A stretch of DNA of 64,000 nt from Dehalococcoidia bacterium (GTDB taxonomy: Bacteria; Chloroflexota; Dehalococcoidia; Tepidiformales; Tepidiformaceae), in NCBI GenBank assembly GCA_020850615.1, contig JADZEI010000045.1, forward strand, positions 1 to 64,000. Direction: 5' to 3'. The notes beneath the pieces are model-generated. The model saw only the letters and a program-made list of their open reading frames with translations. It made no database searches and was not told where the DNA came from. The position numbers and the translations under genes were made by a program. Position 1 is the stretch's first letter. Each line of letters begins with the position of its first letter. Positions 4,860 to 23,609 of this stretch are shown piece after piece.

Positions 4860-5450
4860 GTGGGACGATTGGGCGCGGCATCGAGGGGCCTGGGGGCGGT
4901 TGTGGCGCTCGTGGCGCTGGTCCTTGCGGCCTGCGGCGGCGGTGGTGGCGGCGAAGATGGCGACGCCGACGAGCCAACCGAAACCGCGACGGCCACGCCG
5001 ACGGCGACCGTGGGCATCCCGGGCGCCGGCTCGCGTCCTTCGCCCTCGCCCACGCCGGTTCCGACGCCTACTCCGGTCCCGGAGCCGACGAATGCGGTCT
5101 CCGAAGGCGAGTGGCACTTCCTCTTCGTCATTGTTTCGAACAACTGCGGCGGCGACCCCGTCGTGGGGACGACGTTCGACTTCTACTACTACTTCGGGGA
5201 GACGCGGGAGCCGAAGGACGGGTACATCGCCGACGGCGAGCCGTTCCAGCTGACGCACATCGGCGGGACGTACGTGGCGAACCAGGTGTTCACGTGGCCC
5301 ACGTTCACGTGGTCGTACCCGGTGGATGGCGGGAATGCGTACGTGACCGGCACGTGGGACACACCGCACCACGGCGTGGGGGACCTGACCGAGTCGTACG
5401 ACATCGGCGGCGGGGACACGTGCACGATCTTCGCTCGCGACACGGGCTGA
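4860..5450 (+). CDS. Secreted lipoprotein with Thr/Pro linker and a domain shared with the nearby Ser/Thr kinase
   Basis: 196 aa from a GTG with GGAGG upstream. An N-terminal hydrophobic stretch ends in the lipobox LVLAAC (Cys25), followed by Gly/Asp/Glu-rich and Thr/Pro-rich linker sequence to about residue 78. The folded C-terminal part (about 83-192) has conserved-looking cysteines 96 and 188. It aligns by eye with the extracellular end of the kinase at 7.0-9.1 kb: SNxCG, then DGE, then a Phe/Trp-rich strand, then LTExY, then a final Cys. It is predicted to be lipid-anchored outside the cytoplasmic membrane. Function unknown; it may be a soluble partner or decoy of the kinase sensor domain. 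Confidence 0.8.
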   Translation: MGRLGAASRGLGAVVALVALVLAACGGGGGGEDGDADEPTETATATPTATVGIPGAGSRPSPSPTPVPTPTPVPEPTNAVSEGEWHFLFVIVSNNCGGDPVVGTTFDFYYYFGETREPKDGYIADGEPFQLTHIGGTYVANQVFTWPTFTWSYPVDGGNAYVTGTWDTPHHGVGDLTESYDIGGGDTCTIFARDTG

Positions 5451-5572
5451 TCGCCCGATTCTGATGACGTGTGTGCGCCCCATGGCCCGTTTGCACGGCC
5501 TGATTGGCCGATTACTCGCGCGCGAGATGGTAGGATGCTGCGCCGTGCGGAATCCCGTTTGAGAGGCCCCCG

Positions 5573-7009
5573 ATGACCTGCGCGACCTGTGGCGCTGACC
5601 TCCAACCCAACGCGAGGTTCTGCACGCGGTGCGGCAAGGCCGTCGCCGCAGCTGCGGCCGGTGGCGCGGCTGCCGGGGCTGCGGGCGCCGGGGGGCTGGA
5701 GGCAGCGGAAACGGTGGTGGGCCCCGCGGGCGGCGCGGATGCGGCAAGCCTGCAGACGCAGGTCCCAGGGGCGGGCGCTGATTCGGCCGTGACGATGGCG
5801 CCGGGGGCGGGGGCGCCGATGGAAGCACAGCCGCTGATGGGCGCTGGCGCGGACGCGGCTCAGACGGTAGTGCCCGGGGCGGGCGCGGAGCTGCCCACGC
5901 AGGTCATCCCGGGAGCTGGCTCCCAGCCGCCGGCCGGTGACCTGGCGACGGCGATGACATCCGCGCCGCCGGCTACTTCCGAGGCTGCGACGGTGGTGCG
6001 GGCGGCCAACCCCCCACCGGCACCGCCGCCCATCCCGCAGGCGCCGCCCGCGCCGCCGCCCGTGGCGTCGCCGCCGGGTGGCTTCTGCACGTCCTGCGGG
6101 GCGCCGCTGGGGGCGGGGGCCGCGTTCTGTGATGTGTGCGGCGCCGAGGCCCTCGCGGGCGCGGCGGGCGGGGGTGGCATCCCCCCGGGCCGCGTGCCGG
6201 GCCCCGGGCCAGCCGGCGGTGGCGGAGGCGGGAGCCCGTGGATCAAGGCGGTCGGACTGGCCGTGGTCGCGGCCCTCGCCGCCGTGGCTACCGGCGTCTG
6301 CGTGATGTTCGCGGCCGGGGGCGACGACGACGACCAGGCCGGTGACGACGACAGACCAACCGAAACGGCCACCGAGGACGGCACGCGTTCGCCGACGCGC
6401 ACGCGCACAACCGGTGCGACGGCTACGGCGTCGCAAAGGGCCACGGGGACCGGCACTGCGACCACGACGAGCACCGTCACGGCGACCGTGACTTCGACCC
6501 AGCCGCCCACCGCCACACCGCCCGGTGCGACCGCGACGCCCGTGCCGCCCACGCCGGTGCGGGCCACGGCCACGCCGACGAACCCCCCGCCTCCCGCAAC
6601 GCCAACGCCCACGAGGATCCCGCCGACCGCCACGCCGCCGCCGCCGACACCCACTCCGACGCGAACGCCTGTGCCGACGCCCACGCCGACCGCGACCCCG
6701 ACGCCGCATGTGGTGACCTACACGTTCTACGCGTACTGGGACTGGGACGAGTACTACGTGGGCGACCAGGCCTACATCTGCTACCAGATGAGTCCCGAGG
6801 ACATCCCGTACCAGGTCGACCTCTACCAGACCTTCCCGGTCCAGGCCTACATCACGAGCTGGACCGACAACGGCATCGGTGGTGGCGACTGCTTCGGGCC
6901 GCTCACTATCGGCTACGAAGATGTGCCGATGGTGGAAGCGCTGCTCATCGCGACGATCAACGGTGTGCAGCAGCAGGCCTCGGCCAGCGCCTACGTGTAC
7001 GAGGAGTAG
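5573..7009 (+). CDS. Double-zinc-ribbon single-pass membrane protein with Thr-Pro stalk
   Basis: 478 aa. The cytoplasmic N-terminus holds a zinc ribbon (Cys3, 6, 17, 20) and a second ribbon (Cys172, 175, 186, 189). Between them lies an Ala/Gly-rich stretch with repeated Thr-x-Val motifs before PGAG (ETVV, QTQV, QTVV, PTQV, ATVV). A transmembrane helix spans about 224-248. A Thr/Pro-rich stalk of about 120 residues and a distinct C-terminal extracellular domain (about 380-478, with two cysteines) follow. The architecture parallels the neighbouring kinase and the quadruple-ribbon protein. The Thr motifs are possible phosphorylation sites for the kinase (inference). No known family assigned; function unknown. 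Confidence 0.78.
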   Translation: MTCATCGADLQPNARFCTRCGKAVAAAAAGGAAAGAAGAGGLEAAETVVGPAGGADAASLQTQVPGAGADSAVTMAPGAGAPMEAQPLMGAGADAAQTVVPGAGAELPTQVIPGAGSQPPAGDLATAMTSAPPATSEAATVVRAANPPPAPPPIPQAPPAPPPVASPPGGFCTSCGAPLGAGAAFCDVCGAEALAGAAGGGGIPPGRVPGPGPAGGGGGGSPWIKAVGLAVVAALAAVATGVCVMFAAGGDDDDQAGDDDRPTETATEDGTRSPTRTRTTGATATASQRATGTGTATTTSTVTATVTSTQPPTATPPGATATPVPPTPVRATATPTNPPPPATPTPTRIPPTATPPPPTPTPTRTPVPTPTPTATPTPHVVTYTFYAYWDWDEYYVGDQAYICYQMSPEDIPYQVDLYQTFPVQAYITSWTDNGIGGGDCFGPLTIGYEDVPMVEALLIATINGVQQQASASAYVYEE

Positions 7010-7045
7010 GCCACCGCTCGCAGGCGCCCGCTCCTGGCGTGCGCG

Positions 7046-9112
7046 TCAGGGCTTGCCGGTGATGGTGCAGGCGGGGTCCTGGTAGCGTTCTGTGAGCGAT
7101 GTGTCGGCGATAGTCAGGGGGTCCGAATAGGTGGTGCGGACGGTCGCCGTTCCCGTGCGGCCATCTTCGGCGATGACCTGGTAGGTGAACTCGAAGTCGA
7201 CGAAGTGGAAGGTGAACTCGCCGATGGGATAGTCGATGTCCTTGACGACGACGACCTCGACCTTCTCGCCGTCGAAGATGGCCGTGGCGCCCGGGTCGAC
7301 GGGCTTGATGCGGAAGGACGCCGGGTAGAGCGCGCCGACGGCGGCGCCGACCCCGCAGTCGTTGCTGGTGATGCGGAAGGCGTAATCCCAGCGGTCGATC
7401 ACCTCGATGGACTTGCCGCCGGGGGTTGCGGTGGCGGTGCGGGTGGTGGCGGTGGCCGTGCTCGTACGCGTCGAAGTGGAGGTCGCGGTCCGGTCGCCGT
7501 TGCCGTCCTCGTCGCCGCCACCGCCCGCGAGGAGGTACGCGCCGCCGGCGCCGGCAGCGACGACAACGGCGGCGATCGCACCGCCGATGAGCATCTTCTT
7601 CGAACCGCCGCCACCGCCGTTGCCCCCGCCGCGCCGGGCCGCCGCCGGGATCGCGGAGACGTTGACGAAGCCGATACGGGCGCCGTCGTCGCGCTGGGCG
7701 CTGACCTGGAACTGGATGACGCGCACACCGCCCGGCGCGGGACGGAGCTGCCGCACCTCCACCGGCAGGCGCTGCACCTGGCCGCCCGTGAGAATGACCG
7801 GGCTGGGCACGGAGATGCTGAGGACGCCGGTGGGCTCCTTCGCGGTGAGCGAAAGGCGGACGGGCGAGGGATCGGCGTTGGTCAGGGTCAGCTCGTAGTG
7901 GGAGACGTCCCCGACGGTCTCACGGTAGCTGGCGACCATGCCCACGGACTTGACGACGCCCTGGGGGCCGGCCGGGCTGGCCGTGGTGGGTGCAACCCCC
8001 GGGCCCGGGGCAGGGCCGCCGATGCGCGTCGGGGCAAGCGCGCCGCTGTCGCCGGTGGCCGCCGGCGGCAGGGTCGTGGGCGCGACCGCCGGCGGTGGCG
8101 CGGGTGGAGGTGCGGGCGGCGGCGTGGCCGCGCCGGGCGATTCGACCACGGTGGCGAGCTCGTTGCCCGCGGCCGAGGGCGGGCGGGAGGCAGCGGGCGG
8201 CGTCGAGGGGGGCCGCGAGGCGGACGGCGGGGTCGAGGGCGTGCCACCTGCCGTCCTGCGCGGGGAAGGGGGCGCGTGGAGGATCGCGGCGAGCGCGCGT
8301 TCCAGCGCCCCGGCGAGCTCGCTGGCGGTCTGGTAGCGATCCCGGGGGTCCTTCTCCATGCAGCGCCGGATAGGGTTGTTGATCGAGTCGGGCAGGTGCG
8401 AAAGCGGCTCCATTGGGACCGGGGCTCGCTGGTGTTCGCGCAGCACGTCCCAGACCGAGGCGCCGCTGAACGGCGGGTGGCCGGTGAGCATGCAGTAGAG
8501 CGTGGCGCCAAGTGCATAGATGTCGGAGCGGTGGTCTGCCTCGCCGACGGCCTGCTCTGGGGCAGCGTAGTCGGCGGTGCCGACGAAGCGGCCGGCCGAG
8601 GTAAGGCCGGCGCCGCCTTCCTGGCGGGCGATACCAAAGTCCGTGACCTTCACCCGGCCGTCGGGGGTGAGGAGGATGTTGTCGGGCTTGATGTCGCGGT
8701 GGGTCACGCCGCGGGCGGCCGCTTCCTCAAGCGCGCGGGCCACATCGATGGCGATGCGAAGGGCGCGGACGGGCTCCATGGGGGTGCCCTGCTTGAGCTC
8801 GTGGCCGACGGTGGTGCCCTCGACGTATTCCATGACGAGGAAGTACGTGCCTTCGGCGACGCCGAAATCGAGCAGCCGGACGGTGTAGGGCGAGCGCAGG
8901 AGGGCGGCGATGTGGGCTTCGCGTTCGAAGCGGTCGCGGAAGGAGCTGTCTTCGGCGGCGAGCCAGGGATGGAGGAGCTTCACAGCGACCCGGCCGCCGT
9001 CGCGGACGTCGATGGCCTCGAAGACCACGCCCATGCCGCCGTGGCCGAGCTCGCGGACGAAGCGGTACTGCTTCACCTGGGTGAGGAGGCGCGGGTCGGA
9101 GGGGGTGGTCAT
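7046..9112 (-). CDS. Transmembrane serine/threonine protein kinase (PknB-like) with extracellular sensor domain
   Basis: 688 aa from the ATG giving MTTPSDP. The kinase domain (about 16-275) has all Hanks motifs: LGHGGMG loop, AVK (Lys45), HRDIKPDN with catalytic Asp140, DFG 158-160 and APE 184-186. A Pro/Thr-rich region follows, containing ATVV at 320-323. Then comes a beta-rich Ig-like segment (about 385-490), which is unusual because it lies before the membrane helix (about 507-529). A Thr-rich stalk and a C-terminal domain (566-688) resemble the lipoprotein at 4.86-5.45 kb. No PASTA repeats are present, so it is not a standard peptidoglycan-sensing PknB. It is convergent with the double-ribbon gene. 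Likely targets are nearby Thr-motif proteins and an FHA reader (inference). Confidence 0.93.
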   Translation of the reverse strand: MTTPSDPRLLTQVKQYRFVRELGHGGMGVVFEAIDVRDGGRVAVKLLHPWLAAEDSSFRDRFEREAHIAALLRSPYTVRLLDFGVAEGTYFLVMEYVEGTTVGHELKQGTPMEPVRALRIAIDVARALEEAAARGVTHRDIKPDNILLTPDGRVKVTDFGIARQEGGAGLTSAGRFVGTADYAAPEQAVGEADHRSDIYALGATLYCMLTGHPPFSGASVWDVLREHQRAPVPMEPLSHLPDSINNPIRRCMEKDPRDRYQTASELAGALERALAAILHAPPSPRRTAGGTPSTPPSASRPPSTPPAASRPPSAAGNELATVVESPGAATPPPAPPPAPPPAVAPTTLPPAATGDSGALAPTRIGGPAPGPGVAPTTASPAGPQGVVKSVGMVASYRETVGDVSHYELTLTNADPSPVRLSLTAKEPTGVLSISVPSPVILTGGQVQRLPVEVRQLRPAPGGVRVIQFQVSAQRDDGARIGFVNVSAIPAAARRGGGNGGGGGSKKMLIGGAIAAVVVAAGAGGAYLLAGGGGDEDGNGDRTATSTSTRTSTATATTRTATATPGGKSIEVIDRWDYAFRITSNDCGVGAAVGALYPASFRIKPVDPGATAIFDGEKVEVVVVKDIDYPIGEFTFHFVDFEFTYQVIAEDGRTGTATVRTTYSDPLTIADTSLTERYQDPACTITGKP

Positions 9113-9264
9113 TGCACCGCGCATCCTAAAGCGCGGAGGCGCTGGTTTGAATGGTCCCCCTGGCACATGATGGCGGGCCGTTGTTCCATGACGCCGCGCG
9201 GGCGCACGGCATCACACTGGTGGCGCCCGAATTCGCGAACGAACCGGGGAGGTGCCCTCCTGCC

Positions 9265-11034
9265 ATGAACCAGACCTGCGCCGCCTGTGGCAACGAGAAC
9301 ACCGACGCGGAGGCGCGGTTCTGCGGGAATTGTGGCGAACTGATGCCGCTGACCTGCACCGCCTGTGGCAACCGGAACGTCGACGCGGATGCGCGGTTCT
9401 GTGGGGACTGCGGCGAACTGATGCCACTGACCTGCGCGGCGTGTGGCAACCGGAACGTCGACACGAATGCGCGGTTCTGTGGGGACTGCGGCGAACTGAT
9501 GCCGCTGGTCTGCGCGGTCTGTGGTGTACATAATCCCGGCGATTCATCGTTCTGCATGGACTGCGGGTCCTCGATGGAGGAGCAGGAGCGGCGGCGGGGG
9601 GCGCTGGCGTTCGGCGCGGCAACCGGTGGCGCGGCGCTCGGCGGCGGAATCGCGATTATGGGCGAATCGGCCGGGCTTGCGGCGGTCGCCGGTGGTTCGG
9701 CGGTGGCGGGTTCGGCGGCGATCCCAGGCGCAGCGGCAGCGGCCGGCGGCATCGCGGGAGCTGGTGCGGTTGCCGCAACGGGCGGTGGGATCGCGGGAGC
9801 GGCCGTGGCTTCGGGTGGTGTCGCGGGAGCGGGTGCTGCCGCGGCGTCGGGCGGGATCGCCGGCGCTGGTGCGGCTGTGGGTGGTATCGCCGGTGCGGGC
9901 GCGGCTGCGGGGGGTATCGCTAGCGCAGGTGCGGGTGCGAGTGGGATCGCTGGTGCGGCAGCAGCTTCGGGTGGCATCGCGGGTGCTGGCGCTGCTGTTT
10001 CGGGCGGCATCGCGGGTGCGGGTGGCATTGCCGGGGCTGGCGCTGCCGTTTCGGGTGGCATTGCCGGGGCTGGCGCGGCGGTTTCCGGCGAGATCGCGGG
10101 CGCGGCTGCCACGGTGGGAAGCGCGGCCGAGGTGGCCGCCGGTGTGCCATCGCTGGCCGGCTCGGCCGCTGGCGTGATGCCTGAGGTGCCGGCGTCGCTG
10201 GCCGGGGCGGATGTGCCGGGCCTGGGCACCGTGGTGGAACAGATCGCGACGGCGCCAGTTCCGCCGGCCCCGGCCCCGACCCCGCCGGCCCCGCCCGCGC
10301 CTGCCGCGACATCGCCCGTGCCGCCGTCTGCGCCCGCGCCGGAGGTGGCGCCCTCGGCCCCGCCGTCCGCCCCGGTCGAGCCCCCGCCTTCGCCCGCCGC
10401 CCCGCCGTCGACGGCACCGTCTGCGCCGGCGCAGCCCGGGCTGGTGGGACGCGTGGCGGAGCCCGCGGTCCATGTGTCGCGGGTCGGCCGGGTCATCCGG
10501 GTGATCGGCACCGGGCTGGGGGTCACCGCGGTTGGGGTTATCGCGATCGCGGCGCTGCTGGCCGGGCTGCTGTTCACGGGCAACCCGCAGCCATGCGTCG
10601 ATCGGTCCAGCGTGCCGAGCGCGGCCGCGGCGCGGGAACTCCAGTCGAAGTGGGACGCGTTCAAGGCGGATGGGCCGGGCGCCGCGGTGGAGTTCACAGA
10701 GCAGGAGGTCACCTCGCGGGCGGTGGAGCACCTCGACACGAGCGACGTGCCGATCGAGGACCTGCAGGTCTACTTCTGCGCCGACGGGAAGGCCGAGGCG
10801 AAGGGCCGCCTGGCGCTGGCCGGGCGGGACATCAACGTGCTCATCCGCGGCCACCTGGACGTGGGTTCGAACACGATCGTCATCGACTCGGTGAAGGCGG
10901 GGAACCTGCCGGCCGCCATCGGGACGCGGATCGTGAACCAGATCGCCGACCGGAACAGCGTGCGTGAGCTCGACCTCGGGGTCGCGCTGGCATCGAGCAC
11001 GACCACGGACGGCGCGCACACGTTGACGCGGTAG
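9265..11034 (+). CDS. Quadruple-zinc-ribbon membrane protein with Ala/Gly repeat region
   Basis: 589 aa. The ATG giving MNQTCAACG has GGGAGG upstream; an in-frame ORF continues upstream but lacks ribbon sequence. Four CxxC-x11-CxxC-type zinc ribbons occupy residues 5-100. A long Ala/Gly/Ile/Val repeat region (about 160-282) is followed by a Pro-rich stretch, a transmembrane helix (about 414-437) and a C-terminal outer domain of about 150 aa. The outer domain has two cysteines and a faint resemblance to DUF2140/YpmS-like lipid-associated domains (not certain). It belongs with the double-ribbon protein and kinase in layout and is divergently transcribed from the kinase. Function unknown. Confidence 0.78.
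   Translation: MNQTCAACGNENTDAEARFCGNCGELMPLTCTACGNRNVDADARFCGDCGELMPLTCAACGNRNVDTNARFCGDCGELMPLVCAVCGVHNPGDSSFCMDCGSSMEEQERRRGALAFGAATGGAALGGGIAIMGESAGLAAVAGGSAVAGSAAIPGAAAAAGGIAGAGAVAATGGGIAGAAVASGGVAGAGAAAASGGIAGAGAAVGGIAGAGAAAGGIASAGAGASGIAGAAAASGGIAGAGAAVSGGIAGAGGIAGAGAAVSGGIAGAGAAVSGEIAGAAATVGSAAEVAAGVPSLAGSAAGVMPEVPASLAGADVPGLGTVVEQIATAPVPPAPAPTPPAPPAPAATSPVPPSAPAPEVAPSAPPSAPVEPPPSPAAPPSTAPSAPAQPGLVGRVAEPAVHVSRVGRVIRVIGTGLGVTAVGVIAIAALLAGLLFTGNPQPCVDRSSVPSAAAARELQSKWDAFKADGPGAAVEFTEQEVTSRAVEHLDTSDVPIEDLQVYFCADGKAEAKGRLALAGRDINVLIRGHLDVGSNTIVIDSVKAGNLPAAIGTRIVNQIADRNSVRELDLGVALASSTTTDGAHTLTR
9274..9507 (+). repeat. Three tandem 78-bp repeats encoding zinc ribbons
   Basis: Three consecutive 26-codon units beginning TCxACGN and ending CGELMPL are nearly identical in protein and strongly similar in DNA. 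The second and third differ at only a few codons. A diverged fourth ribbon follows. The high identity points to recent duplication by unequal exchange or slippage. Confidence 0.85.
9742..10110 (+). repeat. Degenerate tandem repeats encoding GGIAGAGAA-type peptides
   Basis: About a dozen copies of a 9-11 codon unit related to GGIAGAGAAVS lie inside the quadruple-ribbon gene. The glycine spacing (GxxxG) is glycine-zipper-like. The last copies (near 9990-10090) are the most alike in DNA, suggesting ongoing expansion or contraction. Confidence 0.75.
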
Positions 11035-11479: not shown

Positions 11480-12166
11480 TCAGACGAGCAACTGGAGCGC
11501 CTGCAGGTCCTTGATGACGATCTCCTTGCGGTGGACGACGATGAGCCCGTCTTCCTCGAACACGCGCATGGTGCGGCTCACCACTTCGCGTACGGAGCCG
11601 AGGAGCGAGGCGAGGTCCTGGAGGGTGAGCGTCCGCGGCACGACGAGGCCCTCGCTGGTGGCGACGCCTTCTTCGCGCGCGATCTGATAGAGGTGGCGGG
11701 CGAGGCGCGCCTGGACGGTCTGCAGGCTCATCTGCTCGACCATCTCGGTGAAGGCGCGGAGGCGGCGTGCGAACTGGCGGAGGACGTCCACGGCGACGCG
11801 CGGGTTCGAAAAGAGCAGCTCCATGAACACCAGCGTGGGTATGACGATGACCTCGCACGGCTCGAGCGCTTCGACCGTGGACGGCGCGGGCTGCCCGTCG
11901 AACACGGGCACTTCGCCGAAGGTGTCCCCGGGGGCGACGACGCGAAGGGTCTGTTCGCGGCCATCGACGCCGCTGCGGAAGATGCGGGCCTTGCCGGAGC
12001 GGAGCAGGAAGAAGCCGGGGGGCGTGTCGCCCGCGACGAGGACGTACTGCTTCGGCGCGACGGCGAAGGCATCGAGCCGGGCCGCGAAGCGCCGGAGTTC
12101 GTCGTCGCTGAGGCCCTGGAGGTAGCGGACCTGGCGGATGTCGTCGATCGAGACGGGCGCGACCAC
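11480..12166 (-). CDS. Crp/Fnr-family transcriptional regulator (Fnr-type DNA recognition)
   Basis: 228 aa. The N-terminal cyclic-nucleotide-binding-like beta-barrel (about 12-125) includes FGEVPVFDG. The C-terminal winged helix (about 150-225) includes LTLQDLASLLG and the recognition helix SVREVVSRTMR. The E-x-x-S-R pattern in that helix is the one Fnr/Dnr proteins use to read TTGAT/C half-sites. In the cNMP pocket the usual phosphate-binding Arg is replaced (PAPST), so cAMP binding is doubtful. There is no N-terminal cysteine cluster, so it is not an oxygen-sensing iron-sulfur Fnr. It may respond to redox, NO or another ligand. Divergent from the copper protein gene, with an Fnr-type palindrome between them. 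Confidence 0.9.
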   Translation of the reverse strand: MVAPVSIDDIRQVRYLQGLSDDELRRFAARLDAFAVAPKQYVLVAGDTPPGFFLLRSGKARIFRSGVDGREQTLRVVAPGDTFGEVPVFDGQPAPSTVEALEPCEVIVIPTLVFMELLFSNPRVAVDVLRQFARRLRAFTEMVEQMSLQTVQARLARHLYQIAREEGVATSEGLVVPRTLTLQDLASLLGSVREVVSRTMRVFEEDGLIVVHRKEIVIKDLQALQLLV

Positions 12167-13909: not shown

Positions 13910-15766
13910 TTGCTCCGCATCGCCGTCCGTTCGGAAGGACAGGAAGAGACCTTCGACCATGAGTCGGGGCCGGTCGAGTTCGGCCGCGCACCGGGCGAGA
14001 ACGGCCTGCCCCGTTGCCTGCTCGCTGACCCGTTCGTGTCGCGCAACGCGCTGCGGATCGAGGCCGTGGAAGGCGGCCGCGTCCGCGCGGAGAACCTGAG
14101 CATGACGATGCCGGTGCGCATCCCCGGGGGCGAGATCTCGATCGGGGAGCTGGAGGTGGTCGCGCTCCCGGTCGAATTCGGGTTCGGACACACGTACATC
14201 TCGGTCGAAGAGGTGCCGTACGAACCGGAGGGGCCGGGTTCGCCGCCGCACCACCCGGCCGGAGCCGAGGCCGCCGCCCCGGAGGAACCGGCCGGGGCGT
14301 CTCCTCCCGCGGCGCCGCCGGCGGCTTCCGGGCCGGTGATCGAGGCGGTGGAGCCGCCGCGGGAGCCGAGCGCGCCGCCGGTCGCGCTGCACGAGCTGGG
14401 CGATGCGCCGGGCCCGGAGGTGCTGGCGCTCTGGTTCGAAACCCTGGTCGCGGTGCAACAGGCGGCCGCAACCTCGGAGGCGTTCCTCGATGCGACGGCC
14501 CGGGCCGTGGTCGACCTCGTGGGGCTGGACCGGGCGCTGGTATTGCTGCCCGAGGGCGACGGCTGGCGGATCGCGGCGGCGTCGCCGCCCGAGGCGGTGG
14601 GGCGCCCGCCCTACAGCGAGACGATCGTGCGCGAGGTGTGCCGGCAGAAGCGCACGGTGTTCCGGAACCTCGCCGAGGAGTCGCTCTCGCTCAGCCTTGC
14701 GGGGATCGACACGGTGGTGGCGGCGCCCATCCTCGACGGGGCGCGGGAGGTCGTGGGGATCGTGTATGGCGCGCGGGCGCTGCGCCCCGATGCCCTGCCG
14801 CGGAAGGTAACGCGGCTGGAGGCGCTCGTCGTGCAGGTGCTGGCGGCGGCGGTGGGCGCGGGGCTCGAACGCGAGCAGGAGCAGGAGCGCGCGCTGCGGA
14901 GCCAGGTGCAGTTCGAGCAGTTCTTCTCTCCCGAGCTGGCGCGCGAGCTGGCGGCGGACGCGTCGATGCTCGAGGGCCGCGAGCGCGAGGTGACGGTGCT
15001 CTTCAGCGACGTGCGCAACTTCTCGCGGATCTCGGAACGGGTGGGGCCGCAGCGCACGTTCGCGATGATGCAGGACCTGATGGAGCTCCAGAGCGTCCAC
15101 ATCCGGGACACGGGCGGCACGGTGGTGGACTACGTTGGCGACGGGCTGCTGGCGATGTGGAATGCGCCGGTGGAGCAGCCGGACCACCCGCTGCGGGCAT
15201 GCCAGGCGGCCGTGGACTTTCTCCGCGAGCTGACGGCGCTCTCGATCCAGTGGGAGGAAGAGGCGGGGGAGCCGCTCCACCTCGGCGTGGGGATCCACAC
15301 GGGCGTGGCGCTCGTGGGCAACACCGGGAGCCGCGTGAAGCTGAAGTACGGGCCAATGGGGCCGACCGTGAACCTCGCGAGCCGGCTGGAGAACTCGACC
15401 AAGGTCACTGGCGTGAGCGCGCTCATTTCGCGCGCGACCCGGGACCGGCTGCCATCGAGCTTCGCGACGCGCCGGCTCGGCGGCATCCGCGTACAGGGCG
15501 TCCCGGACCCGGTCGAGGTGTACGAGCTGCACCCCGGGGCCGGCGGGCCGGAGTGGCGCGACCACCGCGACACGTTCGAGCGGGCGCTGCTGCACTTCGA
15601 GATCGGGCAGTGGTCTGAGGCGTGCCAGCTGCTGGCGGGCCTGCTGACCGCGGGCGACGGATACGACGTGCCCTCGCTGCACCTGCTGTCGCGGTCGGTG
15701 GAGTGCCTGCGTTCGCGGCCGGAGCCGTTCGACCCGGCGATGACCATCCAGAAGCAGACGACGTAG
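13910..15766 (+). CDS. FHA-GAF-class III nucleotide cyclase
   Basis: 618 aa from a TTG with GGGAG upstream. Reading further upstream adds only terminator-region sequence. The N-terminal FHA domain (about 3-98; FGR 24-26, SRN 44-46) would bind phosphothreonine. A Pro/Ala linker follows, then a GAF domain (about 150-315), then a class III cyclase domain (about 345-520). Metal-binding Asp residues are seen in LFSDVRNFS and YVGDGLLAMW, and the transition-state Asn and Arg in TVNLASRLE. The substrate-specifying Lys and Asp positions appear exchanged (VVDYVGD; KLKYGPMG), so the product is uncertain. A C-terminal helical tail follows. Co-directional with the PPK2-type gene 14 bases downstream. The FHA domain links it to Ser/Thr kinase signalling. 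Confidence 0.87.
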   Translation: MLRIAVRSEGQEETFDHESGPVEFGRAPGENGLPRCLLADPFVSRNALRIEAVEGGRVRAENLSMTMPVRIPGGEISIGELEVVALPVEFGFGHTYISVEEVPYEPEGPGSPPHHPAGAEAAAPEEPAGASPPAAPPAASGPVIEAVEPPREPSAPPVALHELGDAPGPEVLALWFETLVAVQQAAATSEAFLDATARAVVDLVGLDRALVLLPEGDGWRIAAASPPEAVGRPPYSETIVREVCRQKRTVFRNLAEESLSLSLAGIDTVVAAPILDGAREVVGIVYGARALRPDALPRKVTRLEALVVQVLAAAVGAGLEREQEQERALRSQVQFEQFFSPELARELAADASMLEGREREVTVLFSDVRNFSRISERVGPQRTFAMMQDLMELQSVHIRDTGGTVVDYVGDGLLAMWNAPVEQPDHPLRACQAAVDFLRELTALSIQWEEEAGEPLHLGVGIHTGVALVGNTGSRVKLKYGPMGPTVNLASRLENSTKVTGVSALISRATRDRLPSSFATRRLGGIRVQGVPDPVEVYELHPGAGGPEWRDHRDTFERALLHFEIGQWSEACQLLAGLLTAGDGYDVPSLHLLSRSVECLRSRPEPFDPAMTIQKQTT

Positions 15767-15780
15767 GGGAGGCGAGGGTC

Positions 15781-17259
15781 ATGTTCGAAAGCGCGCAGCT
15801 CGGCCGGAAGGTGGACCGGGAGACGTTCGCGGCACGGGAGCCCGTGCTCCGCGAGGAGCTGCTGGACGCACAGCTGCGGCTGGCGGCGGCGGGGTTCTCG
15901 GTGGTGGTGGTGATCGCGGGCGCGGAGGGCGCGGGCAAGGGCGAGACGGTGAACCTGCTGCTGAACTGGCTCGACGCCCGCGGCGTGCAGGTCCACGCGC
16001 TGGGGGCGCCCTCGGAGGAGGAGCGGGAGCGGCCGGACTACTACCGCTTCTGGCAGCGGCTGCCACCGAAGGGGAAGATCGGCATCTTCTTCGGGTCGTG
16101 GTACACGCGCCCGATCGCTTCGCACTCGCTGGGGGAGCTGGACGAGGCGGGGATGGAGGACGGGCTGCGGCGGATCGCCGAGTTCGAGCAGATGCTGGCG
16201 AACGAGGGCGTGCTGCTGGTCAAGTTTTGGCTGCACATCACGAAAGCCCAGCAGAAGAAGGTGTTCAAGGAGCTGGCGAAGGACAAGGACACCGCCTGGC
16301 GCGTTTCGAAGCTGGACTGGCGCTATCACAAGACGTTCGACGCGTTCGTGAACTCGGCGAGCCGGGCGCTGCGCCGGACCAACACGGGGTACGCGCCCTG
16401 GCACATCATCGAGGCGGCGGACGCGCGCTACCGGAACCTCACCGTGGCGGAGAAGCTGCTCGCGGCGATCGAGGCGCGGCTGGCGGCGGTCGCGCCCGCG
16501 GCGGTCACGCCTGCGCCTACACCGGTGCCCATGCGGCCGAACCTCATTTCGAGCATGGATTTGCGGCTCGCGGCGCCGGAGGGGGCGTACCGGAAGGAGC
16601 TCGCGCGCGTGCAGCTCAACATCGGCCGGCTGGCGCGGGAGCTGCCCGGGCGCGAGCGAAGCGTCGTCGCCGTGTTCGAAGGGTCCGACGCGGCGGGCAA
16701 GGGCGGCGCTATCCGCCGGATCACCCAGGCGCTGGACGCGCGGTATTACGAGGTCGTGCAGATCGCTGCGCCGACGGACGAGGAGCAGGCGCGGCCGTAC
16801 CTCTGGCGGTTCTGGCGGCGGCTGCCGCGCCGGGGGCACTTCGCCATCTACGACCGGTCGTGGTACGGGCGGGTGCTCGTCGAGCGGGTGGAGAACTTCT
16901 GCTCGCCGGCGGACTGGTCGCGTGCCTACAGTGAGATCAACGCGTTCGAGGAGCAGCTGGTCTCGTCGGGCACGGTGGTGCTGAAGTTCTGGCTTTCGAC
17001 GAGCAAGGAGGAGCAGCTGCGGCGGTTCCAGGAGCGGGAGCAGATGGGGTTCAAGCGGTACAAGATCACGCCGGAGGACTGGCGCAACCGCGAGAAGTGG
17101 GACGCCTACGAGGCAGCGGCCTGCGACATGATCGAGAAGACGAGCACGGAGCTGGCCCCGTGGACGCTAGTGGAGGCGGAGGACAAGCTGCACGCGCGGC
17201 TCAAGGTGCTGCGGACGCTGGAGGGGGCGCTCGCCGGGGCGGTGGGGGCGAAGCGGTAG
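15781..17259 (+). CDS. pap: Polyphosphate:AMP phosphotransferase (two-domain PPK2)
   Basis: 492 aa. Two PPK2 domains in tandem (about 10-235 and 255-488). Each has a Walker A-like loop (GAEGAGKGE and EGSDAAGKGG). The C-terminal domain has the complete lid motif YDRSWYGRVLVERVE, while the N-terminal one reads FFGSWYTRPI. This is the usual layout of class II enzymes, where the C-terminal domain is catalytic. They transfer phosphate from polyphosphate to AMP, giving ADP. GGGAGGCGAGG precedes the ATG. It lies 14 bases after the cyclase gene, so nucleotide signalling and AMP recycling may be co-expressed (inference). Confidence 0.92.
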   Translation: MFESAQLGRKVDRETFAAREPVLREELLDAQLRLAAAGFSVVVVIAGAEGAGKGETVNLLLNWLDARGVQVHALGAPSEEERERPDYYRFWQRLPPKGKIGIFFGSWYTRPIASHSLGELDEAGMEDGLRRIAEFEQMLANEGVLLVKFWLHITKAQQKKVFKELAKDKDTAWRVSKLDWRYHKTFDAFVNSASRALRRTNTGYAPWHIIEAADARYRNLTVAEKLLAAIEARLAAVAPAAVTPAPTPVPMRPNLISSMDLRLAAPEGAYRKELARVQLNIGRLARELPGRERSVVAVFEGSDAAGKGGAIRRITQALDARYYEVVQIAAPTDEEQARPYLWRFWRRLPRRGHFAIYDRSWYGRVLVERVENFCSPADWSRAYSEINAFEEQLVSSGTVVLKFWLSTSKEEQLRRFQEREQMGFKRYKITPEDWRNREKWDAYEAAACDMIEKTSTELAPWTLVEAEDKLHARLKVLRTLEGALAGAVGAKR

Positions 17260-22656: not shown

Positions 22657-22929
22657 ATGACGACATCGGAGCAGGCGGTCGCAGCGCGCGGCGAGCGCGA
22701 GGTGGCGGTGGAGGACGCGGCGGCGAGGTTCGCCGAGCTGCTCGCGGCGGTGGAGGGCGGCGAGAGAGTGACGATCACGCGGGACGGGCGGGCGGTGGCG
22801 CGGCTGGTTCCATCGCGCGAACCGGCCCGGACGCCCGCGGAGGCGGCCGAAGAGCTGCTGGAGATGCGTGCGGAGCATCGCATGAGCCGGGAAGAGATCC
22901 TCGAGGTGGTCCAGGAAGGGCGGCGCTGA
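22657..22929 (+). CDS. Phd/YefM-type antitoxin
   Basis: 90 aa from ATG (a GTG three codons earlier is possible). The Phd/YefM fold is recognisable: EVAVEDAAARFAELLAAV, GERVTITRDGRAVARLVP. A helical C-terminal tail would wrap the toxin. Its stop codon abuts the GTG of the toxin gene with no gap. It is expected to neutralise the PIN toxin and repress the operon by binding upstream. Confidence 0.88.
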   Translation: MTTSEQAVAARGEREVAVEDAAARFAELLAAVEGGERVTITRDGRAVARLVPSREPARTPAEAAEELLEMRAEHRMSREEILEVVQEGRR

Positions 22930-23343
22930 GTGCCGGTCGTGGTGGACGCATCAGTAGCGCTGGCGTGGGGCTTCGACGATGAGGCGTCCAGTTTCGCAGT
23001 GGATGTGCTGAGTCGCGTCGTTTCGGAGGGGGCGACAGCCCCCGCCATCTGGCCGCTGGAAGTCCTGAACGGCATCGTGCAGGCGGAACGGCGAGGGCGT
23101 ATCAATGCAACGACGGCACGCCGGATGCACCAGTCCATCATGGACCTGCGGGTGCAGGTGGAGGCAGTCCCCGGCCCACCGGCTCTACGGGCGATCCATG
23201 TCGTCGCGCGTGAGCGCGGACTCACCGCGTACGATGCCGCCTACGTCGAGCTCGCTCGGCGAATGAGCGTGCCGCTCGCGACGCTTGATGTGCGGCTCCG
23301 CACTGCGGCGGAGTCGGCCGGCGTTGTCGTCCTTTCGGAGTGA
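22930..23343 (+). CDS. VapC-type PIN-domain ribonuclease toxin
   Basis: 137 aa starting at GTG directly after the antitoxin stop. PIN-domain acidic residues are visible in VVVDASVALAW (Asp near 6), LEVLNG (Glu), LTAYDAAYVELA (Asp) and ATLDVRLR (Asp). VapC toxins cleave tRNA or rRNA. The pair is stand-alone, beside lhr, with no mobile-element genes nearby. Confidence 0.9.
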   Translation: MPVVVDASVALAWGFDDEASSFAVDVLSRVVSEGATAPAIWPLEVLNGIVQAERRGRINATTARRMHQSIMDLRVQVEAVPGPPALRAIHVVARERGLTAYDAAYVELARRMSVPLATLDVRLRTAAESAGVVVLSE

Positions 23344-23360
23344 GGCTCCAGTCAGTCCGG

Positions 23361-23366
23361 TAGACT
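23361..23366 (+). promoter_or_regulatory. Putative -10 element before the second antitoxin-like ORF
   Basis: TAGACT ends six bases before the ATG of the truncated antitoxin copy. This is the same short spacing as at the other antitoxin gene, suggesting that the promoter was duplicated with the gene. Confidence 0.35.
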
Positions 23367-23372
23367 GTGGCT

Positions 23373-23609
23373 ATGACGACAGCAGACGACTCTGCTGCGG
23401 GCTCGGATGCGGACCACGTCGAGCGCGAGGTGGCGGTGGAGGACGGCGAAAGCGCGATGATCACGCGGGATGGGGAGCCGGTGGCACGATTGGTGGGCGT
23501 CGAGCGCGACCTGGACGCGGTGATCGAAGCGATAATGGGTTTCGGGCGCGCCCATCCTCTCGAAGGCATCACGGTCAAGGAGCTGATCGAAGAAGGGCGG
23601 CGCTTCTGA
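23373..23609 (+). pseudogene. Internally deleted second Phd-type antitoxin copy
   Basis: 78 aa. It shares EREVAVED and ITRDGxxVARLV with the intact antitoxin 0.7 kb upstream, and a run of about 26 bases is identical in DNA. The roughly 17 residues between these blocks (the AAARFAELLAAVEGG helix) are missing, and no toxin gene follows. The missing helix is part of the dimer/DNA-binding core, so DNA binding is probably lost. The C-terminal toxin-binding tail is still there, so it could be a remnant or a short decoy antitoxin. Confidence 0.65.

Follow-up and report, generated by a model that had tools for sequence, protein, structure and literature searches.

Few membrane partners of bacterial Hanks-type kinases are known beyond the outer domains that these kinases carry themselves, and the locus described here raises the question of whether further partners are encoded beside a kinase gene. 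Between positions 4860 and 11034, the 64-kb window (the whole stretch of DNA analysed) carries four predicted genes that encode, in reading order, a lipoprotein, a membrane protein with two zinc ribbons (R2), a Hanks-type Ser/Thr kinase and a membrane protein with four zinc ribbons (R4). The initial annotation had taken these adjacent genes for one envelope-sensing system; all four open reading frames are present as it described them, and Pfam backs both the ribbons and the kinase. In the family to which the window genome (G000) belongs, the kinase and the ribbon proteins stay together as conserved neighbours. We think it on balance probable that they form a family-specific Hanks-kinase/FHA module, of the kind known from PknF and Rv1747, that has been extended by single-pass zinc-ribbon proteins, R2 being a phosphorylated scaffold and R4 an associated protein.

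Composition of the locus

The genes (Table 1) are separated by gaps of 122, 36 and 152 bp, with no further gene in between. The kinase gene converges on R2 and points away from R4, and because it lies on the strand opposite to that of the others the locus is not an operon; a single-operon reading was therefore dropped.

Table 1. Position and strand of the genes and domains at the kinase locus, with neighbouring genes kept in relatives
Feature	Position	Strand	Basis or remark
Lipoprotein, 196 aa: lipobox LAAC, T/P-rich linker, one outer domain of kinase-ectodomain type	4860..5450	+	
Kinase-type ectodomain within lipoprotein, two conserved Cys	5106..5447	+	profile A5, E 3.3e-32
R2, 2-ribbon single-pass membrane protein, 478 aa	5573..7009	+	
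R2 zinc ribbon 1, CATCG-CTRC	5579..5632	+	
R2 cytoplasmic linker, five T-[RQV]-[VI] motifs (5711, 5756, 5864, 5897, 5990)	5711..5998	+	
R2 zinc ribbon 2, CTSCG-CDVC	6086..6139	+	
R2 membrane helix	6257..6313	+	hydropathy
R2 outer domain (R2C)	6698..7006	+	profile A4; relatives also on FHA and kinase proteins
Hanks-type Ser/Thr kinase, 688 aa	7046..9112	-	
Kinase outer domain, two conserved Cys	7049..7396	-	profiles A1/A5
Kinase membrane helix	7538..7594	-	hydropathy
Kinase Ig-like domain, between linker and membrane	7682..7900	-	FixG_C-like
Kinase cytoplasmic linker, with ATVV and PTRI motifs	8027..8152	-	
Kinase catalytic domain, with HRDIKPDN, DFG and APEQ	8327..9067	-	
Divergent intergenic region, kinase/R4	9113..9264	no strand	
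R4, 4-ribbon single-pass membrane protein, 589 aa	9265..11034	+	
R4 four zinc ribbons (starts 9277, 9355, 9433, 9511)	9277..9564	+	
R4 membrane helix	10516..10572	+	hydropathy
R4 outer domain (R4C), weakly LmeA-like	10582..11031	+	
GAF-adenylate cyclase, degenerate FHA-like N-terminus	13910..15766	+	neighbour kept at kinase locus in g8, g17
Double PPK2 polyphosphate kinase	15781..17259	+	neighbour kept in g8, g17

In the kinase, a complete Hanks catalytic domain (Pfam Pkinase, 5.8e-44; Lys, HRD, DFG and APE motifs present) is followed by a low-complexity linker, then by an Ig-like domain, a single helix and finally an outer domain of about 115 aa with no Pfam match. The Ig-like domain (aa 405-477) is conserved among orthologues, its FixG_C-like match being below the curated cut-off. 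Compared with the PASTA kinases of the PknB/Stk1 type (NF033483), the catalytic domain scores as the same type (281 bits over aa 15-277, under the whole-protein cut-off of 450), but the window kinase differs from them in having an outer domain without Pfam match and no PASTA repeats detectable by a Pfam scan.

R2 combines its two ribbons (Pfam Zn_Ribbon_1, 2.9e-12) with a T/P-rich outer linker beyond the helix and a terminal domain of about 100 aa; its score against the 4-Cys prefix kinase domain NF045510 (17.9 bits) is below the cut-off of 24. R4 has four ribbons (Pfam DZR, 9.6e-18), a long Gly/Ala/Pro-rich linker between ribbons and helix, and an outer domain of about 150 aa. A layout common to R2, the kinase and R4 had been proposed, and it stands in so far as hydropathy gives each protein one helix, with the kinase and the ribbons predicted to lie inside; the kinase has, in addition, the Ig-like domain before its helix. 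When profiles of the outer domains were searched against the PDB, only chance-like matches were returned.

A kinase outer domain carried by a lipoprotein

The lipoprotein, whose reading frame opens with a GTG start after GGAGG, is a free copy of the kinase outer domain, as judged from sequence comparison. The two domains are homologous (BLASTP E 3e-5, 8 SD over shuffles), and a single profile built on both recovers each of them. The same profile finds two more copies in the window genome, one on a kinase (contig C22) and one on a lipoprotein (C35), as well as kinases in seven further family genomes. The C22 kinase (L020) adjoins a PP2C phosphatase gene, and the C35 lipoprotein (L021, 8994-10481; 495 aa) has the kinase-type outer domain at its end. 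Among the 37 family genomes, only the window genome carries this ectodomain as a lipoprotein. A tree of outer domains built for the origin of the lipoprotein copy has long branches and no well-supported fork, and AlphaFold modelling of the kinase/lipoprotein outer domain from a two-sequence alignment gave a mean pLDDT of 39, on which no fold is claimed.

Conservation of the neighbourhood within the family

The family was sampled with 37 genomes from 18 genera. Kinases with this ectodomain occur in eight of these genomes (5/18 genera), and R4 co-occurs with the kinase in all five genera. R4 adjoins the kinase in four of the five (G000, G027, G016 and G009), and R2 is adjacent to it in three of the five (G000, G016, G017 and G023). 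A profile search of the family genomes did not find R2 in genus g8. The initial annotation had named the regular occurrence of homologues without the kinase nearby as evidence against a system; R4 is unlinked to the kinase in genus g18, where it lies elsewhere in the genome, and in G059. A conserved set is supported for R4 and R2 to this extent, and is not supported for the lipoprotein, which is found in this form only in the window genome. In G016 the R4 gene appears to be divided between the ends of contigs C7 and C13 (L015, L083), judging from matching truncated halves, probably because its repetitive linker defeats assembly.

R4 points away from the kinase in three genera and follows it in the same direction in g10, and the position of the FHA-ABC gene described below varies as well, being downstream, upstream or divergent. 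As arrangements differ between genera, the neighbourhood is not a case of frozen synteny, and its recurrence in other genera through such rearrangements indicates more clustering than chance would produce. The mixed strands and the unconserved lipoprotein are what a chance adjacency of unrelated genes would look like, yet R4 recurs beside the kinase in four genera and R2 in three, genomes hold only 1-12 Hanks kinases each, and an independence estimate that ignores shared ancestry puts such recurrence at 1e-8 to 1e-9; chance adjacency is accordingly very improbable. Fisher tests that ignore within-family kinship associate the kinase with FHA-ABC (p = 4e-6), R4 (1e-5) and R2 (2e-3) over the 37 genomes, and with FHA-ABC (0.007), R4 (1e-4) and R2 (0.02) by genus; since every kinase locus is from one family, the independence of the cases is limited. 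At E <= 1e-5, no kinase-type or R2 outer domain was found outside the window genome in 300 other genomes of the phylum, and both domains appear, from these searches, to be confined to the family.

An FHA-ABC exporter as the most constant neighbour

The gene that accompanies the kinase most constantly is none of the four. A 3xFHA-ABC gene is present in all eight genomes with this kinase, and in seven of them this exporter (3xFHA-ABC-ABC2, about 915 aa) adjoins the orthologous kinase, the exception being the window genome. These exporters have ABC and ABC2 domains, and the binding residues Gly-Arg-Ser-His-Asn, whose roles are given in PMC5549992, are kept in all three FHA domains.

Six kinase-domain matches, one of them weak, and eleven FHA domains were counted in the window genome; no FHA domain is recognisable within the 64-kb window. 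Its FHA-ABC gene lies on contig C61 (L077, 5907-13327), where it adjoins a gene for an FHA-FHA-LCAT (acyltransferase/hydrolase-like) protein and is divergent from a different Hanks kinase, one with a PD40 beta-propeller outer domain. Since it is on another contig, any partnership with the window kinase must act in trans.

An alignment search of genome contigs with the FHA-ABC sequence returned generic FHA and ABC loci, no family member among them, and FHA-ABC genes with Hanks kinases in their flanks in several phyla. In records from Holophagales and Sandaracinaceae (L096, L097), the FHA-ABC frames have a ribbon-like CxxC...CxxC motif of their own, hinting at a link between ribbons and FHA exporters beyond Chloroflexota.

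Exchange of outer domains

Outer domains of the types found at this locus are common to kinases, FHA proteins, ribbon proteins and lipoproteins. A 2-ribbon protein on contig C54 of G009 bears the kinase-type outer domain (profile E 3.6e-10), and in G016 an FHA-FHA protein (E 8e-8) and a Hanks kinase (E 9e-5) carry relatives of R2C. This placement of outer domains on several architectures argues for counting the ribbon proteins in one signalling toolbox with the kinases and FHA proteins.

R2C-domain genes are also found without this kinase. The one in G003 has two ribbons and directly adjoins an FHA-ABC gene, those in G011 and on contig C61 of G009 have one ribbon each and FHA proteins within about 5 kb, and the one on contig C45 of G016, in whose reading frame ribbons were not seen, is clustered with kinases, FHA proteins and a PP2C. 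With 4-17 FHA domains per genome, we estimate that at most a few per cent of random positions would fall this near to an FHA gene.

The ribbon proteins might instead be co-receptors that bind the kinase directly, the ribbons contacting it and the outer domains gating it, with no docking of FHA proteins. The single-pass layout common to the kinase, R2 and R4, the G009 ribbon protein that bears a kinase-type ectodomain and the divergent orientation of R4 in three genera all agree with this. By BLASTP comparison, however, the outer domains of R2 and R4 have no sequence relationship to that of the kinase and lipoprotein, and R2-type genes occur near FHA genes where this kinase is absent; we regard direct co-reception as distinctly unlikely.

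A threonine motif in the cytoplasmic linkers

The motif T-[RQVKM]-[VIL], which was defined after viewing the sequences, was counted in the linkers of one protein per genus and compared with 1000 shuffles. The cytoplasmic linkers of the kinases contain 11 of these post hoc motifs against 0.84 expected and those of R2 contain 9 against 0.71, numbers that none of the 1000 shuffles reaches in either case. The R4 linkers are not enriched (3 motifs against 1.0 expected, a number reached by 68/1000 shuffles), and neither are the T-rich outer linkers, although that of R2 is far richer in Thr. Of the 41 Thr in the kinase linkers, 11 start the motif, as against 4.9% of those in other window proteins. 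The motif is also found between the FHA domains of several of the FHA-ABC exporters.

The bacterial FHA ligands GarA, OdhI and DgcB carry hydrophobic residues at -3, +2 and +3, of which +3 is stressed most (PMC6733907). The linker motif has its hydrophobic residue at +2, whereas the solved ligands stress +3. The +3 pattern was not enriched when it was looked for in the linkers, and we therefore only infer that FHA domains bind them.

The ribbon proteins had been proposed as partners or substrates of the kinase, and the motif separates the two. R2 carries the Thr motif of the kinase linker, and there is moderate support for R2 as a phosphorylated receptor-scaffold on which FHA proteins would dock. 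For R4 the linker counts lend a role as substrate no support, and R4 was not retained as a candidate substrate.

R4 and its outer domain

R4C weakly resembles the LmeA-like phospholipid-binding proteins (PF11209), with a weak match in two of seven R4-domain members (best E 0.0062); it differs from LmeA in being fused to four ribbons and a helix. A single-sequence AlphaFold prediction of the domain had a mean pLDDT of 45, on which no fold is claimed, and a Foldseek search with this low-confidence model gave no match below E 0.001. R4C is spread more widely than the family: elsewhere in the phylum it is found on small membrane proteins or lipoproteins without ribbons, and the ribbon-fused form occurs in another family (G059). 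R4 may tentatively be seen as an associated envelope protein, perhaps LmeA-like.

Could both ribbon proteins be independent envelope proteins, R4 an LmeA-like lipid-binding protein and R2 a structural or sensory one, that are merely inherited together in a region of envelope functions and on which the kinase does not act? R4 invites this explanation, its outer domain being present elsewhere in the phylum as a small protein that has neither ribbons nor a kinase, its gene being unlinked in g18 and its linker being without enrichment of the Thr motif. Against it, changes of gene order and strand have not broken up the neighbourhood, kinases and FHA proteins have exchanged outer domains with the ribbon proteins, R2 linkers share the motif of the kinase, and R2C genes without this kinase are still near FHA genes or other kinases. 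We consider mere co-inheritance unlikely, if by no means negligible.

Comparison with known systems and proposed working

The staphylococcal protein TcaA has a cytoplasmic ribbon, one helix and an outer domain, a layout that R2 and R4 resemble. No TcaA-type domains were found by Pfam in either protein, and we know of no FHA/kinase neighbourhood for TcaA.

In Mycobacterium tuberculosis, the kinase PknF and the FHA-ABC exporter Rv1747 form an operon in which the kinase positively modulates the transporter (PMC3908365), and phosphorylation by PknF promotes condensation of the FHA region of Rv1747 (reviewed in PMC9312465). The relatives of the window locus likewise have a membrane Hanks kinase beside an FHA...ABC-ABC2 exporter, with the same FHA phosphate-binding residues and, in most of the family exporters, with Thr motifs in the inter-FHA linker. 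Rv1747 has two FHA domains and the family exporter three; the window locus differs further from PknF-Rv1747 by its additional zinc-ribbon membrane proteins and different kinase outer domain, and the window genome by having its FHA-ABC gene elsewhere, beside another kinase. The initial annotation, which knew of no described system with such a composition, had overlooked this constant neighbour. Weighing these likenesses, the kinase/FHA-ABC core is best seen as PknF/Rv1747-like, a kind already known, and the ribbon proteins as the new part. Systems centred on GAP1-N2 GTPases include ribbon-fused kinases (PMC7159879) and, as here, have a zinc ribbon and a protein kinase in one locus, but no GTPase, vWA or GAP1 components are seen at the window locus and its ribbons are on separate membrane proteins. 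A literature search, with most subscription journals outside its scope, found no description of zinc-ribbon membrane proteins with Hanks/FHA loci.

In the extended kinase/FHA module that we favour, the outer domains would read something at the envelope, and the kinase would phosphorylate itself and, as the shared motif suggests, T-x-V/I sites in its own linker and that of R2. FHA proteins, mainly the 3xFHA-ABC exporter, would then dock at the phosphorylated linkers, and the zinc ribbons may serve as protein-protein adaptors. R4, possibly LmeA-like on the outside, would probably act with the exporter and not as a main phospho-substrate, and the lipoprotein could conceivably compete for the ligand of the kinase or deliver it.

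A broader proposal, possible but in our view doubtful, is that zinc-ribbon single-pass proteins are kinase-less receptors plugged into Hanks/FHA signalling, with interchangeable outer domains and a phospho-Thr linker read by FHA effectors. If true, such receptors would let one kinase report many envelope inputs and would make a new bacterial class of receptor-scaffolds. If R2-type proteins become phosphorylated and FHA domains recognise them, a defined class of membrane scaffold would lead from envelope sensing to an FHA-gated exporter; the gene family is recognisable from its domains and neighbourhood.

Other genes near the locus

The PPK2 and GAF-adenylate cyclase genes complete the kinase locus in g8 and g17, and in the window they start 4.8 kb from the kinase. 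A Crp/Fnr-type regulator (11480-12166) lies nearer still in the window, and genus g18 too has a homologue, 56% identical to it, some 5 kb away from R2 (L016, L017); together with the adenylate cyclase, the regulator hints at cyclic-nucleotide signalling near the kinase locus. Further along the window (22657-23609), an open reading frame for a PIN/VapC-like toxin lies between two for Phd-like antitoxins, all three being identified by reading only.
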